Part shown: positions 35,502-41,015 of the stretch, in pieces
Layout: each line of letters opens with the position of its first letter
How positions within the stretch are numbered: the first letter of the stretch is position 1
NCBI GenBank assembly: GCA_900318205.1
Contig: ONJS01000026.1
Coordinates: 1-41,015 of the forward strand
DNA length: 41,015 bases
Source of the DNA: an uncultured Prevotellaceae bacterium
GTDB taxonomy: Bacteria > Bacteroidota > Bacteroidia > Bacteroidales > Muribaculaceae
Direction: 5' to 3'
Notes under the pieces: model-generated
Told to the model about the DNA's origin: nothing
What the model saw: the letters and a program-made list of their open reading frames with translations, nothing else
Database searches by the model: none
Position numbers and translations under genes: made by a program

Positions 35502-36827
35502 ATGCAGCAGCCGTCTCTTTTTCCTGATCAGCCCCAAGGAATGACTCTGAGCGAGTTCAACGCTCGCATCGAGAGGCAGGTCAATGGTGTGCCCGGCCTA
35601 CAGAACCAGTGGGTCATCGCCGAGACCAGTGACTTGCGACTCAATCGTAGTGGGCATTGCTATACCGAGCTCATCGAGAAGGATGACCGTGGCATTACCA
35701 TCGCCAAGATTGGAGCCGCCATTTGGGCGGGTACCTACAGGGATTTGTATAACAAGTTCTTGAGGTCCACTGGACAAGTACTTGCTACGGGTATGAAGGT
35801 GATGGTCAAGGTGACGGTCAATTTCCATAGCCTTTATGGCATGAAGGTTGTCATCAACGACATCGACCCTAACTACACCCTGGGTGATATGGCACGCCAG
35901 CGGCAGGAAATCATCAACCGCCTCACTGCCGAGGGCATCATCGACCTGAATAAGGAGCTGCCGTGGCCCGAAGTGCCCCAGCGCATCGCCATCATTTCGG
36001 CCGAGGGGGCAGCAGGCTATGGCGACTTCATGAACCAGTTGACGGGTAACCCCTATGGCTTGCAGTTCTATACCTGCCTGTTCAATGCCGTCATGCAGGG
36101 CGCACAGACGGTGCCCACCGTGATGGCAGCCATGGACCGCATCAACCGGCACATCGACTTGTTTGATTGCGTGGTCATTATCCGTGGCGGTGGTGCAACC
36201 TCTGAACTCAACTCGTTTGACAACTATGACTTGGCGTCCTATGTCGCCAATTTCCCGATTCCCGTCATCGTGGGCATCGGACACGAGCGCGATGTGACGG
36301 TACTGGACTATGTCGCTGCCTTGCGCGTCAAGACACCGACCGCCGCTGCCGAGACCCTTATCCAGCGCGGAACTACAGCGTTAGCCCATCTTGACGAGTT
36401 GCAGGATGCTGTCGTGACTGCCGTGCGCGACACGGTGGGTCAAGCCAGGGAGCATCTGGCATTTTTCACCACCATGATACCCGCTGCAGCACGGCACCTG
36501 ATTGACACCAACCGCATCAGGCTCGACAACCATGCCAGGAATATCCCCTTTGCTGCCCAGGGTCTCATCGTCAACCAGCGCACGCGTCTGGAACGGGCCG
36601 TGGAGCGCATGGGCGACGCCGTGTCGCGGGCCTTGCAGCGCGAACAGCAACGTCTGGTGGCTTTGGGCGACAAGGCGACACTGCTATCACCCGTCAACAC
36701 CTTGCAGCGAGGTTATTCCCTCGTGAGACTTGGCGACAAATGCGTCACAGCAGCCGACCAGTTGCACTCCGGCGACCAGATTACCGTGCAGTTTGCCACC
36801 GGCACCACCGACGCCACCATCAATTAA
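35502..36827 (+). CDS. xseA: Exodeoxyribonuclease VII large subunit
   Basis: A 441-residue catalytic subunit of ExoVII, which degrades single-stranded DNA from both ends to oligonucleotides. An N-terminal OB fold (about 15-115, WVIAETSDLRLNRSGHCY) is followed by the nuclease domain with AIISAEGAAGYGDFMNQL, then RGGGATSELNSFDNYDLASY and GIGHERDVTVLDYVA. The Arg/Gln-rich coiled region and the closing LQRGYSLV with a short beta end complete the family layout. Length is normal. It pairs with xseB at 36885. Confidence 0.95.
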   Translation: MQQPSLFPDQPQGMTLSEFNARIERQVNGVPGLQNQWVIAETSDLRLNRSGHCYTELIEKDDRGITIAKIGAAIWAGTYRDLYNKFLRSTGQVLATGMKVMVKVTVNFHSLYGMKVVINDIDPNYTLGDMARQRQEIINRLTAEGIIDLNKELPWPEVPQRIAIISAEGAAGYGDFMNQLTGNPYGLQFYTCLFNAVMQGAQTVPTVMAAMDRINRHIDLFDCVVIIRGGGATSELNSFDNYDLASYVANFPIPVIVGIGHERDVTVLDYVAALRVKTPTAAAETLIQRGTTALAHLDELQDAVVTAVRDTVGQAREHLAFFTTMIPAAARHLIDTNRIRLDNHARNIPFAAQGLIVNQRTRLERAVERMGDAVSRALQREQQRLVALGDKATLLSPVNTLQRGYSLVRLGDKCVTAADQLHSGDQITVQFATGTTDATIN

Positions 36828-36884: not shown

Positions 36885-37097
36885 ATGGAAGAAAACACTC
36901 AAATGACCTATACCCAAGCCGTGACCGAGCTTGAGCAACTCGTGCAGAAGATGCAGGACCCGCAGTGCAGCATCGACAACCTGACCGACTACACCAAGCG
37001 CAGCAAGGAACTCCTTGACATCTGCCGCAAGAAGCTCACCCAAGCCGACGAGCAACTCAAGCAGATCCTCGCCGATATCCAGCAGCAAGGCCAATAA
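36885..37097 (+). CDS. xseB: Exodeoxyribonuclease VII small subunit
   Basis: A 70-residue, all-helical subunit that binds the long helical part of XseA. The hallmark TQAVTELEQLVQKMQDPQCS followed by a second helix ending in LKQIL is present. The start ATG at 36885 gives the usual length. Confidence 0.93.
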   Translation: MEENTQMTYTQAVTELEQLVQKMQDPQCSIDNLTDYTKRSKELLDICRKKLTQADEQLKQILADIQQQGQ

Positions 37098-37152
37098 ATC
37101 CAGTTGATAGACGAATGGCTCTCCAGCCAGAAACCAAGAGAAAATCCAACTA

Positions 37153-37180
37153 TTCTCTATTAACTGTTCTCTATTAACTA
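37153..37180 (+). repeat. Tandem 14-mer before tRNA-Leu
   Basis: TTCTCTATTAACT with one following base occurs twice head to tail (37153-37166 and 37167-37180), just upstream of the tRNA promoter. Confidence 0.7.
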
Positions 37181-37189
37181 AAAAAAGCC

Positions 37190-37197
37190 TATCTTTG
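37190..37197 (+). promoter_or_regulatory. -7 element of tRNA-Leu
   Basis: TATCTTTG followed by C is a full match to TAnnTTTG, placing the transcript start about ten bases before the tRNA. The -33 element (TTCT) is poor and lies in the tandem 14-mer. Confidence 0.65.
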
Positions 37198-37214
37198 CAC
37201 CCGCAAAAAAGCCC

Positions 37215-37296
37215 GCGCCTGTGGCGAAATTGGTAGACGCGCCAGACTTAGGATCTGGTAACTCCGGTTGTGTAGGTTCGAGTCCTATCAGGCGCA
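37215..37296 (+). tRNA. tRNA-Leu (anticodon TAG)
   Basis: The acceptor GCGCCTG (37215-37221) pairs with CAGGCGC (37289-37295) with discriminator A at 37296. The anticodon arm is CCAGA-CTTAGGA-TCTGG, anticodon TAG. A long variable arm is present, as in class II tRNAs. CCA is not encoded. The last 16 bases are repeated at 40772-40787, marking this gene as an integration site. Confidence 0.95.
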
Positions 37297-37367
37297 CTGG
37301 AAATCAAAAACCCGCTGAACTCCAGCGGGTTTTATGCGTTAATATAGGCCCTAAAATGAAACTGAAC
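37281..37367 (+). repeat. Left direct repeat of the tRNA-Leu island (att-like)
   Basis: It covers the tRNA 3' end from AGTCCTATCAGGCGCAC, the tRNA terminator, and the sequence ATGCGTTAATATAGGCCCT to AAACTGAAC. The same sequence recurs at 40772-40860 with few differences. Confidence 0.85.
37307..37334 (+). terminator. Terminator of tRNA-Leu
   Basis: AACCCGCTG (37309-37317) pairs with CAGCGGGTT (37323-37331), followed by TTT. An equivalent hairpin lies at 40801-40824 in the right repeat, where the stem is one pair longer. Confidence 0.85.
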
Positions 37368-37417
37368 CGATTGTGGTTGGTTTCGTCGTTGCTTTGATGT
37401 GCAAAGGTGTTTCTATG

Positions 37418-38512
37418 CTATAATGTAGGAATAATAGTTAAATCGTATTTTAGGCTATTAGTATCAAGAACTACGTCATATTCTTTTATTCCTTTTTGCT
37501 TTGCAATTCTTCTCAAATGCTCTTTATATCTCGATTCTATTTCTGGACCATAATATATGGCTTTTAGACTATTTACATCATTAATTTCAAAAAAATCATC
37601 TTTTGCTTCAGGAGAGTTTAAGTCTTCAATATCCAAAAGACGCCATTCTTTTTCATGGGAGTATTCAGCTTTGTCTTTATAAAGATATACTTTTTGGAAA
37701 TACAAACGATCTATTGGAACCATTGCAGCATACTGTTTTTTTATGTCTTCGGGCACATTATTATTAAATACCATATAATTTTGACCTATAAGCCTATCTA
37801 TCATTTCCGTCGCATCCATCTTATGAGAAGAATAAATTATAGGGAAAAGCATGATTGCATGATTGTTAATAGATAAAGAGCGCCAACGTCTAAAATCATA
37901 CTCCAAAGCAAATCCTGAATATCCGTTAGCATAGTTGTCCCACATGAATTTTGATTTGACCGTTTCCGTAAAGCATGCTATTTTTGTTGCCTTGTTTGCT
38001 CTTGGCCATTGTTCTTGAATTGTAATCTGATTTATAAATTCGGATAGTGAGTTTTCGTATTCGTGCCAAAACAACTCTAGAATGTCCTCAACCTTTTTTG
38101 AACTATTGATAAGTTCTAAAAGTTTCGATGTCATTGCATTTGATGGCAGTGCTGAAGGATTGCTTTTAAGCACTAATATCAATTGGGGTATAAGCTGATT
38201 ATATGCATCTCTGGCTCTTTTCGTAATTGTCTTGTGATCATAGTAGATTGTCGAATCGTATTTATCTGCAAATTTATATGCTGCACAAACAGGAATTGTG
38301 TTCTGTTCAAATGAGATCATACTATTAATATCACATTTGCGAAAGCGAAATAACTTTTTGGGTATATGTGGTTCGACAAATGAAAATATTTCTGAATATC
38401 GTTTTATTATATCCACATCGGGCATATTGCTTGGAATTGACATTGATTCCATTAATATCGCAAACTCTTTCTTGAATTGTATTCTTGAATATGATTTCCT
38501 TTTTTTGCTCAT
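37418..38512 (-). CDS. DUF2971 domain protein
   Basis: A 364-residue soluble protein without signal peptide. The DUF2971 landmarks are present: LFRFRKC at 54-60, a dispersed central region, ACFTETVKSKFMWDNYANGY at 179-198 with the following SGFALEYDF, a YSSHKMD strand near 227, and the EKEWRLL motif at about 287-293. The molecular function of the family is not established; it is spread sporadically through genomes, often in accessory regions. It lies inside the tRNA-Leu island, downstream of and in the same direction as the AlbA_2 gene, but 341 bases separate them, so separate promoters are likely. The gene is much AT-richer than the housekeeping block to its left, a sign of transfer. Confidence 0.8.
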   Translation of the reverse strand: MSKKRKSYSRIQFKKEFAILMESMSIPSNMPDVDIIKRYSEIFSFVEPHIPKKLFRFRKCDINSMISFEQNTIPVCAAYKFADKYDSTIYYDHKTITKRARDAYNQLIPQLILVLKSNPSALPSNAMTSKLLELINSSKKVEDILELFWHEYENSLSEFINQITIQEQWPRANKATKIACFTETVKSKFMWDNYANGYSGFALEYDFRRWRSLSINNHAIMLFPIIYSSHKMDATEMIDRLIGQNYMVFNNNVPEDIKKQYAAMVPIDRLYFQKVYLYKDKAEYSHEKEWRLLDIEDLNSPEAKDDFFEINDVNSLKAIYYGPEIESRYKEHLRRIAKQKGIKEYDVVLDTNSLKYDLTIIPTL

Positions 38513-38853
38513 ATTGTTATTTTGTGATTTTTAGAAAAACAAAACCGTTAATAGTCTTCAAAAAATTTCCGAAAGTCGTATTACACACGATAAGATTCAT
38601 AACTGAATAAGAAACCAACTAAAAAATCATTACTGTCCTCTATATAACTGAATTAGTCATTACTTCGATGATTCTATAAAAGACTCAAAATCAATCACAT
38701 TTTTTATCAAGTGGTTCCGTATCAATTGATTTGTGATTATAATATTTCTTTTTTTTGTTAAAAATACAATAAAAAAAGACAAACTTTTTGATTATCAAGT
38801 ATTTATGATTTTTCCTTTTTCAGTTTTTTCTTTTTTCTTTTTTTTTATGCCAC
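38513..38853. other. AT-rich gap inside the island
   Basis: 341 bases separate the two island genes. No ORF, tRNA, REP or TAnnTTTG element on the minus strand was recognised. The end next to the AlbA_2 stop (about 38811-38848) is a nearly pure pyrimidine tract on the plus strand (purine on the coding strand). Confidence 0.5.
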
Positions 38854-40485
38854 TCAAATCAAACTATATCTTCTATATGTTTTGCTGCCTTCAGCTTTGA
38901 TTTCATGTCCGACCATACTATAAACCATTTTGCGCAGTTCATCACGTTCCACATCGGGGAGGCGATTTGCCATTTCTGAGATTAAGCTTTGCGGATGGTA
39001 CTTCAAATCCTCTAGAATCAATGCCTTTAATGCATAAGGCTCTATGGTTTTAAGCGATGTCTTGATATTGGCCTTTGAATTGGCTATCAATTTAGGATTA
39101 ACATAATAGGTAGTTCCTTTTTTGGTCCCACGTTTGGTGATAAGTCCATCACGCAACAAGGGATCAACATAACTCCTCAATCGTTCATCGTCGGATAACT
39201 GGAGATAGGCACTTAATTTTGTTGCTTGCAACTTAGAAGATACAGCAATAGCACCAAAGGCCATATAGCCTTTCTGAGATAATCTATAATTGTTCAAAGT
39301 AAAATCTAACAAAGGTAAAACTTCAACATTCTGGATTTCAGAATACAGCGTTACTCTTGTTTCATTAAACGAAGACTCGATGAATGGTGGTTTCTTGCCT
39401 TCCATGCCATTAAGCTCATAAATCAAATCATAACCAGACCCTTCTCCCTCCATCAGTTTGAGATCACTCATGATTGTGATAAGGTATGGGTTGCGGCGAT
39501 GCCGTTGGTGAAGGATATTATCTTTGGTAACACCCAAAGGTAGGCCTCCAGGATTGGAAATCTCTAAACGATCGGGATAGACGCATATCATGATATCATT
39601 AGAGATGGTGAAACTCTTGTGGGCGAATGCGTTGAGCAGCAATTCGCGCAAAACCTTGGGATTATAGTGACGGATCTGCTTGCGGAACAAGCCATCGGGG
39701 AATTCATGAGAGTAACACAATTCTGTAGCCTCATCTTCGATTGCCAATAATAGATCTTTGGGATTAAGTGTATTGTCATGCCATTCCACCTTTCTCACTT
39801 TCTGCTCCAAGTGGTTATAAACAATGTATTGTACTGTGATAGGGAAGGAAATGCGGCTGCGTTGTTTGGCATTACCTAACCATAAGACACCCAAATTGGT
39901 GACCTTTTCGTTATCCACAAGATTGTAATGCTCTAGAATCTCAGGATCGGACATCTGTTTGACATGCTCCTTGACTCGGTCAGATTGTCTTATGTCATTA
40001 GCAAAACGTTTAATATTCTCAACGGGTAAATCCGAAAGTAAATAACGCGTTGACAATAATTCCCATTGGTAGGCACCTTTTTCAATAGACAATCGTTGTA
40101 AATCCTCATTGCGAACTGGCTCACATTTGTCTGCAATTCTACGATATATCTTACCATCAGATGTAGTAGCTATGGACTTTGTTGACGGAGCAACATCAAT
40201 CTTGAAGTAGTCCCCGCCATTTTCGTGTTTTATTAATCCCGAGGAAGACAAACTCACATTGAAACATAGACTGTTCAAGCGCGATACAGCGTCATTGATT
40301 TCATTCTCGCCAATGATTTGTCCATCAGGAGGAGTTAGTGTGTCATCTTCTATGCCAATATACAACGTTCCCCCTAATGCATTAGCAAAGGCTACACATG
40401 ATATTGCTAAATCTTTAAAGCCCTTATCACCCGTGCGAATTTTGCGGATACTTTTATAATCTATTTTCTGATTCTCTATATCCAT
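38854..40485 (-). CDS. Schlafen-type AlbA_2 domain protein with GHKL-like ATP-binding region and winged helix
   Basis: A 543-residue cytoplasmic protein. Residues about 1-120 form an AlbA_2 (Schlafen-like, nucleic-acid-related) domain, with KIDYKS near the start and VAFANALGGTLYIGIEDD at 31-48. Residues about 275-385 carry an HATPase_c_4-type ATP-binding region: VLRELLLNAFAHKSF at 278-292 (N-box with E281 and N285), ISNPGGLP at 309-316, then GEGSGYDLIYE. The C-terminal third (about 395-543) contains winged-helix-like segments (LSAYLQLSDDERLRSYVDPL, RDGLITKRG). Such proteins are annotated as RecG-like or transcriptional regulators, and related architectures occur among defence genes. It is the first gene of the island read from the right end and has a -7 element at 40563-40556. 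Confidence 0.85.
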   Translation of the reverse strand: MDIENQKIDYKSIRKIRTGDKGFKDLAISCVAFANALGGTLYIGIEDDTLTPPDGQIIGENEINDAVSRLNSLCFNVSLSSSGLIKHENGGDYFKIDVAPSTKSIATTSDGKIYRRIADKCEPVRNEDLQRLSIEKGAYQWELLSTRYLLSDLPVENIKRFANDIRQSDRVKEHVKQMSDPEILEHYNLVDNEKVTNLGVLWLGNAKQRSRISFPITVQYIVYNHLEQKVRKVEWHDNTLNPKDLLLAIEDEATELCYSHEFPDGLFRKQIRHYNPKVLRELLLNAFAHKSFTISNDIMICVYPDRLEISNPGGLPLGVTKDNILHQRHRRNPYLITIMSDLKLMEGEGSGYDLIYELNGMEGKKPPFIESSFNETRVTLYSEIQNVEVLPLLDFTLNNYRLSQKGYMAFGAIAVSSKLQATKLSAYLQLSDDERLRSYVDPLLRDGLITKRGTKKGTTYYVNPKLIANSKANIKTSLKTIEPYALKALILEDLKYHPQSLISEMANRLPDVERDELRKMVYSMVGHEIKAEGSKTYRRYSLI

Positions 40486-40555
40486 ATTACGACAGTTTTT
40501 ACCATAGAAAAATCGTAAAATATCACATTAACGTATACTATTTTAGTAAGCACTG

Positions 40556-40563
40556 CAAAGGTA
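40556..40563 (-). promoter_or_regulatory. -7 element of the AlbA_2 gene
   Basis: The minus strand reads TACCTTTG followed by C, a full consensus match. An ATTG lies 16 bases upstream, nearer than the usual 19. It implies a leader of about 65 bases before the ATG at 40485. Confidence 0.6.
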
Positions 40564-40637
40564 CGAAAAGTTTTGCTCACAATTAATTGAAGAGGCCATG
40601 AATGATATCTTGATTATTGTTTTCTGTTGCATTCTCT

Positions 40638-40665
40638 GGGGGGAGCGTGCGCTCCCCCTTTTTGT
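40638..40665 (+). terminator. Intrinsic terminator near the right end of the island
   Basis: GGGGGAGCG (40639-40647) pairs with CGCTCCCCC (40650-40658), followed by TTTTTG. It is oriented for plus-strand transcripts although no convincing plus-strand gene precedes it; it may insulate the island or end a short RNA starting in the divergent region after 40565. Confidence 0.75.
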
Positions 40666-40771
40666 GTCGTTCAACACCTTTCAACGTCTAAATGGCGTTT
40701 TCTATAGGCGTTCAAATGACTGGTTATCAGTTTTTAGAGGTTTTTTATGGTTTTTGGAGGGTTCAAAAACA

Positions 40772-40860
40772 AGTCCTATCAGGCGCACAGAAAAAAACAA
40801 AACCCGCTGGAATTCCAGCGGGTTTTATGCGTTAATATAGGCCCTGAAATAAAACTGAAC
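40772..40860 (+). repeat. Right direct repeat of the tRNA-Leu island (att-like)
   Basis: It carries AGTCCTATCAGGCGCAC (16 bases of tRNA 3' end plus one), the hairpin AACCCGCTGG/CCAGCGGGTT (40801-40824) and ATGCGTTAATATAGGCCCT through AAACTGAAC. It differs from 37281-37367 at a handful of positions, mostly in the tRNA-terminator spacer. The rest of the tRNA is missing, so it is not a functional tRNA gene. Confidence 0.88.
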
Positions 40861-40917
40861 ACATAATTGTTGTTATTTCTTACATCAAGAGAACCTTCCA
40901 CTTTTTCTTCTTCGGAT

Positions 40918-41015
40918 TTAGTCTTTATCGATGAATTTGTTGATCTGTTCTTGGATGTTCGGAGCCAGTGGGGGAATCTTGTTGACTTTCTCGAATCGGC
41001 GCAGTTCGTCGATGT
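40918..41015 (-). CDS. Unidentified protein, C-terminal end only (partial)
   Basis: On the minus strand a frame is open from the window edge to TAA at 40920-40918 and encodes about 31 residues (IDELRRFEKVNKIPPLAPNI, then QEQINKFIDKD). The helical, charged end looks like a genuine protein C-terminus and has the base composition of the chromosomal genes rather than the island. I do not recognise the family. It is probably the original neighbour of tRNA-Leu. Confidence 0.6.
   Translation of the reverse strand, partial: IDELRRFEKVNKIPPLAPNIQEQINKFIDKD

Follow-up and report, generated by a model that had tools for sequence, protein, structure and literature searches.

Introduction

Integrons are the systems to which single-gene cassette capture is usually attributed; their attC recombination sites carry R''/R' motifs with the consensus RYYYAAC..GTTRRRY; clusters of attC sites without an integrase are known as CALINs. 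We know of few integrons in the order Bacteroidales. Elements of the NBU1 type in Bacteroides target a leucine transfer RNA (tRNA) gene through a core of about 14 bp. Here we describe an array of accessory-gene cassettes beginning at the tRNA-Leu(TAG) gene of an uncultured Prevotellaceae bacterium (Muribaculaceae in the GTDB lineage), on contig ONJS01000026.1 of assembly GCA_900318205.1. The window analysed is the whole of this contig, 41,015 bases, and an architecture similar to that of integrons appears in it, built around a tRNA gene and another kind of recombination element.

In the accessible part of PMC3146451, the ssrA islands of Dehalococcoides are tandem and bounded by a 20-bp repeat of the 3' end of the transfer-messenger RNA gene, next to which lies a conserved 15-bp motif; 15 of the 31 islands are without an integration module and 16 have a module with a serine recombinase. 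The accessible part of PMC10872708 describes fGI-2 of Methylopumilus, an additive flexible genomic island at tRNA-Lys with islands of 330 bp to 42 kb, and also tycheposons, which are tRNA-bounded cargo units of 4-200 kb with a tyrosine recombinase. The open-access literature, judged by titles and the beginnings of abstracts, yielded no description of an array such as the present one, and the nearest precedents found were integron cassettes, the Dehalococcoides ssrA islands and the Methylopumilus tRNA-Lys island.

We propose, with a probability of about 0.75, that site-specifically recombining cassettes enter at the 3' end of tRNA-Leu(TAG) and form an integron-like array there. Each cassette usually holds one or two accessory genes, with a core and a terminator on the left and, on the right, an element of about 150 bp (right element, RE) placed before the next core; in sequence the core is identical to the final 14-15 bases of the tRNA gene. 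Site-specific recombination between two cores would insert a cassette beside the tRNA, restoring the tRNA gene, which would gain the terminator of the cassette; older cassettes would be pushed one place outward, building a head-to-tail array. A circular intermediate would be involved, as would a recombinase acting in trans, the foremost candidate being a tyrosine integrase of the sort encoded in two integrase elements described below. This helper is the weakest step of the explanation. Comparison of loci establishes the architecture, the single orientation, the sharing of cassettes across species and positions, and the exchange point in the core.

As in integrons and CALINs, the cassettes lie head to tail, mostly hold a single gene and have one conserved element each, entry is apparently at one fixed end, the recombinase lies outside the cassettes, and cassettes are exchanged as units. 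The arrays differ from integrons in that no IntI-type integrase was found with them, in that cassettes enter at a tRNA gene, to which they bring a terminator, and in that 58 of 75 cassette open reading frames (ORFs) point toward the tRNA, i.e. the entry site. With tRNA-targeting genomic islands they share a piece of the tRNA 3' end displaced to the far end of the unit; profile, query and Pfam searches found no integrase inside the cassettes. Cores flank both sides of a cassette, as att sites do in cis-mobilisable elements without a recombinase; excision by a recombinase encoded elsewhere would be the other mark of such an element. The Dehalococcoides islands are alike in being tandem units bounded by a repeat of an RNA gene's 3' end, many without an integration module; compared with what the accessible part of PMC3146451 describes, the present units have mostly one or two genes and an RE of about 150 bp, and no recombinase was found outside two integrase elements. 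For fGI-2, the accessible part of PMC10872708 describes neither an RE nor cassette transfer across species. Tycheposons, as characterised there, share the tRNA-bounded cargo and differ in that the present cassettes measure 0.3-5.0 kb and no recombinase was found in them.

A repeated tRNA-Leu end in the window

The tRNA-Leu(TAG) gene lies at 37215..37297 on the plus strand (ARAGORN; Rfam tRNA 61.1 bits), and its last bases would form the attachment site. It was the sole Rfam match at the gathering score over 36900-41015, two sub-threshold matches being disregarded. A sequence-only reading of the window had reported that the 3' end of this gene, its terminator and some flank recur 3491 bases downstream, and this was confirmed: 37281-37367 matched 40772-40860 at 90% identity (E 7.7e-26, spacing 3491), and the 15-mer TCCTATCAGGCGCAC, the core, is exact at 37283..37297 in the tRNA and at 40774..40788, both on the plus strand (core-copy search and alignments), with the preceding 30 bases unlike. 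A shared minimum core, CCTATCAGGCGCAC, was deduced from alignments A1 and A2 plus the integrase elements.

The second core forms the boundary of cassettes 1 and 2. Immediately after the tRNA, cassette 1 begins with a left end (37298..37379, plus strand) made of a terminator hairpin, AAAACCCGCTG..CAGCGGGTTTT, and flank common to the second copy (repeat family D1; nhmmer), and cassette 2 begins with a left end with its own terminator hairpin (40789..40872, plus strand). The RE precedes the second core at 40638..40773 (plus strand; nhmmer, alignment A1) as a hairpin with a T-run, GGGGGAGCGTGCGCTCCCCCTTTTT, and about 110 bp up to the core; the nhmmer RE model matched 40638-40865 with 185.7 bits, and the tRNA copy is without an RE. 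REs are of two types, A and B, which have the hairpin and the core in common.

The stretch between the copies is AT-rich, as had been read (35.4% G+C versus 52.3% in 1-37214), and the domain search found no integrase domain in its two minus-strand genes, in agreement with the reported lack of a local recombinase. Since the window is a complete contig (C46), the unit after 40788 is incomplete. Contig C39 of the same genome holds two further copies, 2.1 kb apart and in one orientation. With these, and with at least two cores per contig in 28 of 101 genomes (see below), the unit in the window is one of a multi-cassette array and not the lone island it had been taken for. The remark that the repeat is longer than an attachment (att) core is right as to length; it poses no puzzle for an att site, because each cassette has a core-adjacent terminator, many of them similar, and the shared core is 14-15 bp.

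Cassettes shared between species

For comparison, 61 array or tRNA loci were retrieved and oriented (G numbers denote genomes, G000 being that of the window, and L numbers denote loci). A BLAST comparison of the loci with one another yielded 125 matches of at least 400 bp and at least 80% identity downstream of the tRNA. In 21 of the 125 the match began no more than 30 nt from a core at each of the two loci, and 20 of the 21 did so 10-20 nt before the end of the core. Ten of the 21 paired an RE with a tRNA, and in four more the core labelled 'other' was the tRNA according to ARAGORN; several cassettes adjoin the tRNA in one species and an RE in another. Terminators provide stronger evidence than these match ends. 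Those special to gene families F17, F21 and F40 stay with their genes whether these follow the tRNA or an RE, with some stem change, and therefore place the exchange point in the core.

Cassette identity was compared with that of chromosomal genes. The left chromosomal flank in the window is a plus-strand gene at 35502..36827 (ORF, family clustering), which we take to be xseA and whose family, F1, was present in 28 of the 61 loci. A cassette common to G054 and G052 is 99.2% identical versus 81.0% for xerD, and one common to G000 and G078 is 89.8% identical versus 82.9% for a core gene. Cassette identity exceeded that of the xseA region in 11 of the 12 pairs having a value, which, having been picked from best matches, indicate that transfer happens and not its frequency: G073 and G069, 97.4% (core to core) versus 85.2%; G080 and G066, 94.9% versus 74.4%; G000 and G067, for the window cassette, 91.1% versus 78.8%; and in further pairs 94.9/78.1, 93.9/78.1, 93.3/76.4, 92.5/88.5, 91.7/73.5, 90.4/75.7, 89.7/75.0 and 94.9/75.4.

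The DUF2971 gene of the window cassette is common to G067 and both of its genes are common to G078; in all three genomes the cassette directly follows tRNA-Leu, and the genes upstream of tRNA-Leu in G078 are other than those in the window. In G064 and G053 (L073 and L090) the left flanks are 79-81% identical and the right flanks 85.4% identical over 6.7 kb, with different cassettes between them. The two genes of the window cassette are not found at this site in all close relatives: G054, 94.3% identical in the xseA region, has different tRNA-proximal cassettes. The empty site proposed from sequence alone was not found in clean form in a close relative, the nearest case being G051 (L096), in which the tRNA is directly followed by genes that lie beyond a cassette in G069 (L076). 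Of the interpretations offered by the sequence-only reading, site-specific integration at the tRNA 3' end is supported, and a trans-mobilised cassette is supported as a possibility.

The same exchanges might be produced by homologous recombination between the repeats of about 230 bp, swapping cassettes after DNA transfer; the repeats would then be old att sites that have persisted as blocks of homology and as terminators, with no dedicated recombinase now. The repeats are roughly 80-90% alike and REs can be mosaic (the window cassette and its G078 counterpart, L061, differ in their inner REs), both in keeping with this account, as is the identity in 20 pairs of 80.3% over the first 12 post-core bases, 87.4% over the terminator and 91.1% over the next 185 bases. 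We nevertheless find it unlikely, given that cassettes with odd terminators occur both after the tRNA, where there is no RE, and after an RE, leaving the core and a few bases as upstream homology, and that the post-core sequence of type B is unrelated among 8 aligned units.

Distribution within the genus

The 15-mer TCCTATCAGGCGCAC was found in 77 of 101 genomes of the genus, presumably a genus of rumen bacteria. At least two exact cores shared one contig in 28 of the 101, on the same strand in 28 of 28; in one of these, G031, both exact cores belong to full tRNA genes. The reversed 15-mer had no match in all 101 genomes, which makes a chance origin of the core copies unlikely. Within loci containing the tRNA, 42 of 42 RE matches of at least 50 bits lay on the tRNA strand. 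The exact hairpin-spacer-core pattern occurred in 24 of the 101 genomes, and a looser pattern in 22 of 397 genomes of the family (84 of the same genus and 313 others), all 22 in this genus. In two species a second complete tRNA-Leu(TAG) was observed within or beyond the array region (L115, 2975 and 15484; L120, 2999 and 9047), perhaps carried by an element.

Core copies were also present on contigs without the tRNA, namely C39 of the window's own genome, G054:C69, G054:C71, G050:C50, G018:C137, G072:C3, G046:C2 and G022:C65. These may stem from a broken array or from a second location. Some contigs ended at a core or a few bases from it (the end of G049:C62 and the starts of G057:C31 and G100:C57), which may reflect several junctions coexisting in the population, with which such ends are expected, or a repeat that breaks the assembly.

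Contig ends of this kind, and copies on tRNA-less contigs, e.g. G054:C69 and C71, G072:C3 and G018:C137, are also what one would see of a dispersed tRNA-derived or terminator repeat, or of an assembly artefact, with no tie to mobility. Such an origin is very improbable in view of the one orientation per contig, the different genes bordered in different species and the same structure in many separate assemblies. An interspersed repeat unrelated to the tRNA had been envisaged at the outset; copies away from the tRNA do exist, but they keep the tRNA-derived core and, in most cases, the RE.

Cassette and right-element anatomy

Forty-nine cassettes were delimited between the tRNA or one RE and the next RE. 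RE matches below 50 bits or starting past model position 60 were excluded as borders, and at least one of the listed units, that from the tRNA to 11149 in L059, in fact comprises two cassettes, a split RE match having been excluded between them. The cassettes measured 0.3-5.0 kb, with a median of 1.9 kb and most at 1-3 kb, and held one ORF of at least 90 amino acids in 30 cases, two in 12, three in 5, six in 1 and none in 1.

These dimensions bear on a history of accretion, in which successive autonomous elements at tRNA-Leu lost their integrases and left fossils now mobile by deletion only. Some REs and cores are truncated or degenerate, and integrase-bearing elements are still at the site, as this history would predict. 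It is nonetheless quite unlikely, since the cassettes are small, one RE is common across species, and between species a cassette can be 99.2% identical versus 81% for xerD; for the same reasons we conclude that the cassettes moved as units without an integrase gene.

A hairpin of -12.4 kcal/mol or lower lay within 60 nt after the RE core in 40 of 41 cases, counted without a shuffle control. Many post-core terminators are of unrelated sequence, above all in the type-B species group. The cassette that is 99.2% identical between L059 and L095 has its differences clustered in the terminator stem (L059:10128-10160, L095:3083-3115), where pairing is kept, hinting at selection on the terminator or at hairpin-driven change.

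The RE is about 150 bp long, begins with GGGGGAGCGTGCGCTCCCCCTTTTT and ends at the next core. Type A contains repeats of about 10 bp (ACGCCTTTAR-like), and 24 of 33 type-A elements are 150 bp long, two are 20 bp shorter and one is 47 bp shorter. Only L005 oriented 1481 has a true 10-bp insertion (alignment A1); at least two of the three values of 160 in the length list (L059:13441, L091) stem from the default start of the script. Alignment A1 covers 29 of the 33 type-A elements and alignment A3 covers 22 elements, and the L075 core at oriented 9862, with no RE before it, was omitted from RE alignments and folds. The inner parts of types A and B were no more similar than shuffles. Left ends with neither tRNA nor RE before them were observed in L068 near 7684 (minus strand), L075 near 8157 (minus strand) and L076 near 6023 (plus strand); in L068 and L076 a gene of one family, F48, adjoins the left end. 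The array may have been rearranged, or there may be a second entry site.

Folded with RNA energies, the RE looked attC-like. In the named structure 2 of 41 pairs had changed on both sides, with 488 of 500 shuffles as high, and mean z-scores of the DNA fold were -0.8 (top strand) and -1.4 (bottom strand) for type A (n = 33) and -0.8 and -0.9 for type B (n = 8). With covariation within that of shuffles and weak DNA z-scores, we do not claim a functional hairpin in the RE. The attC signature RYYYAAC..GTTRRRY was present in 1 of 41 REs on each strand (shuffled mean 0.245), and on these three grounds we rejected homology to attC as a basis for membership.

Search for a recombinase

A PF00589 search of 12 genomes gave no match inside any array, the nearest matches on array contigs with the tRNA being about 46, 62 and 95 kb off. 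A screen of the loci with a XerD profile came back empty, a limit of the profile, as it missed the integrase of G006. When 13 recombinase queries were searched against the ORFs of 64 loci, one strong match was obtained, in G006. The corresponding element, of about 7.6 kb, has tRNA-Leu on one side and a further core on the other and encodes an integrase of 447 amino acids (Phage_int_SAM_5, PF00589 and an Arm-DNA-bind_5 match just below the cut-off) together with HTH, AAA_25 and DUF6371 proteins; after it comes a type-B RE with a degenerate core. Relatives of this integrase (E 1e-40 or better) occur in 44 of the 101 genomes. The closest, 80% identical, is that of G049, whose element again lies between tRNA-Leu and a core and has after it a cassette of four genes whose RE is intact. 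Integrases for the tRNA-Leu core thus exist in the genus, beside the tRNA and ahead of a cassette. The arms of the integrase elements are conserved between G006 and G049. Both elements (L111, L224) were seen to begin, right after the tRNA core, with a conserved inverted repeat that includes a reverse part-copy of the core, a candidate binding site.

The two elements look alike in kind to those of the NBU1 type, which likewise combine a tyrosine integrase with a core in the tRNA-Leu 3' end; the cassettes differ in carrying neither an integrase nor a recognised transfer gene. IntN1 is mentioned in the accessible part of PMC6764341. A tyrosine integrase like those of G006 and G049 is a plausible, unproven helper of the cassettes, with modest support. 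In the window's own genome two relatives of the G006 integrase, at 45% and 43%, are encoded at other places.

XerCD was not favoured as the recombinase: two Xer-like matches are typical of the 12 searched genomes, and nothing ties them to the core. A viral helper was likewise set aside, as AGTCCTATCAGGCGCAC matched in two viral contigs, both times inside a coding ORF with no tRNA, which we took as chance, and the RE pattern had no match in viral contigs. A tyrosine recombinase of 267 amino acids in L185:2190-2993 and L186:2382-3197 lies beside genes with ends like type I restriction specificity subunits and is probably unrelated to the array.

Weighing the evidence

Several observations count against a site-specific array served by such a helper. 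The majority of the BLAST matches, 104 of 125, had no core at their start in one or both loci and included flanks, run-on through shared REs and partial matches; moreover, tRNA and RE are unlike upstream of the core, which in part dictates where the core-start matches end. L067 and L076 differ from the core to the terminator loop, with the remainder 97% identical, and for G000 and G054 the identities are reversed, the cassettes at 88.7% versus the xseA region at 94.3%. Every array genome is a multi-contig assembly. REs that are cut short or have other sequence at their end also occur (L104:4826-4967, L093:4829-4690). As for the helper, in 14 of 16 comparisons of integrase-element arms with REs at least 18% of 200 shuffles scored as high, the remaining two being lower, with 0 and 3 of 200. 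Two genomes had integrase elements at the tRNA, and these belong to the type-B group; no type-A array genome had one. The sole type-A candidate for an integrase near an array, G054:C69, is unclear: a partial RE whose core is nearly exact sits at the contig end in L231 (G054:C69:15000-31272), and a relative of the G006 integrase, at 43%, is encoded about 11 kb away. Overall, the sequence comparisons give good support to the view that the cassettes are mobile and modest support to the putative helper.

Cargo genes

The first cargo gene of the window (37418..38512, minus strand; ORF, domain search, PADLOC) encodes the DUF2971 protein, a PADLOC candidate of label PDC-S31, and the second (38854..40485, minus strand; ORF, domain search) a protein with SLFN AlbA_2 and HATPase_c_4 domains. 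The 3' end of a cassette 2 gene, read from sequence alone, lies at 40918..41015 on the minus strand and is cut by the contig end. The DUF2971 gene was found in 3 loci and also lives outside arrays, since L057 has the gene with neither tRNA-Leu nor RE.

Pfam scans covered 46 cassette proteins, 45 from the 75 ORFs of the delimited cassettes plus L062:173-1870, and found no recombinase and no transposase among them. Many had no family at all. The families observed included serpins with or without TonB_C, BspA-type leucine-rich repeat (LRR) proteins, AAA_14/DUF4143, ATPase_2, AAA_15/21, aspartyl protease, Exo_endo_phos, Mrr-like nuclease, LPD13, DKNYY, HAD_SAK_2, DUF2971 and AlbA_2; L060 has a C10 peptidase past its last RE. 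Besides PDC-S31, PADLOC gave the candidate defence labels PDC-S27 and PDC-S01 to ATPases; these are labels only.

Significance

Whether the arrays amount to a living analogue of integrons without a linked integrase, in which a tRNA serves as capture site, an element of about 150 bp as recombination site, and single genes are mobilised in trans in a rumen genus of Bacteroidales, is in our judgement evenly balanced. The finding raises the question of which recombinase moves units that have none of their own. A tRNA gene may be a landing pad in this genus and, if the reading is true, rumen bacteria would have a shared and countable pool of accessory genes, with serpins, LRR proteins, AAA ATPases, proteases and defence candidates among them.

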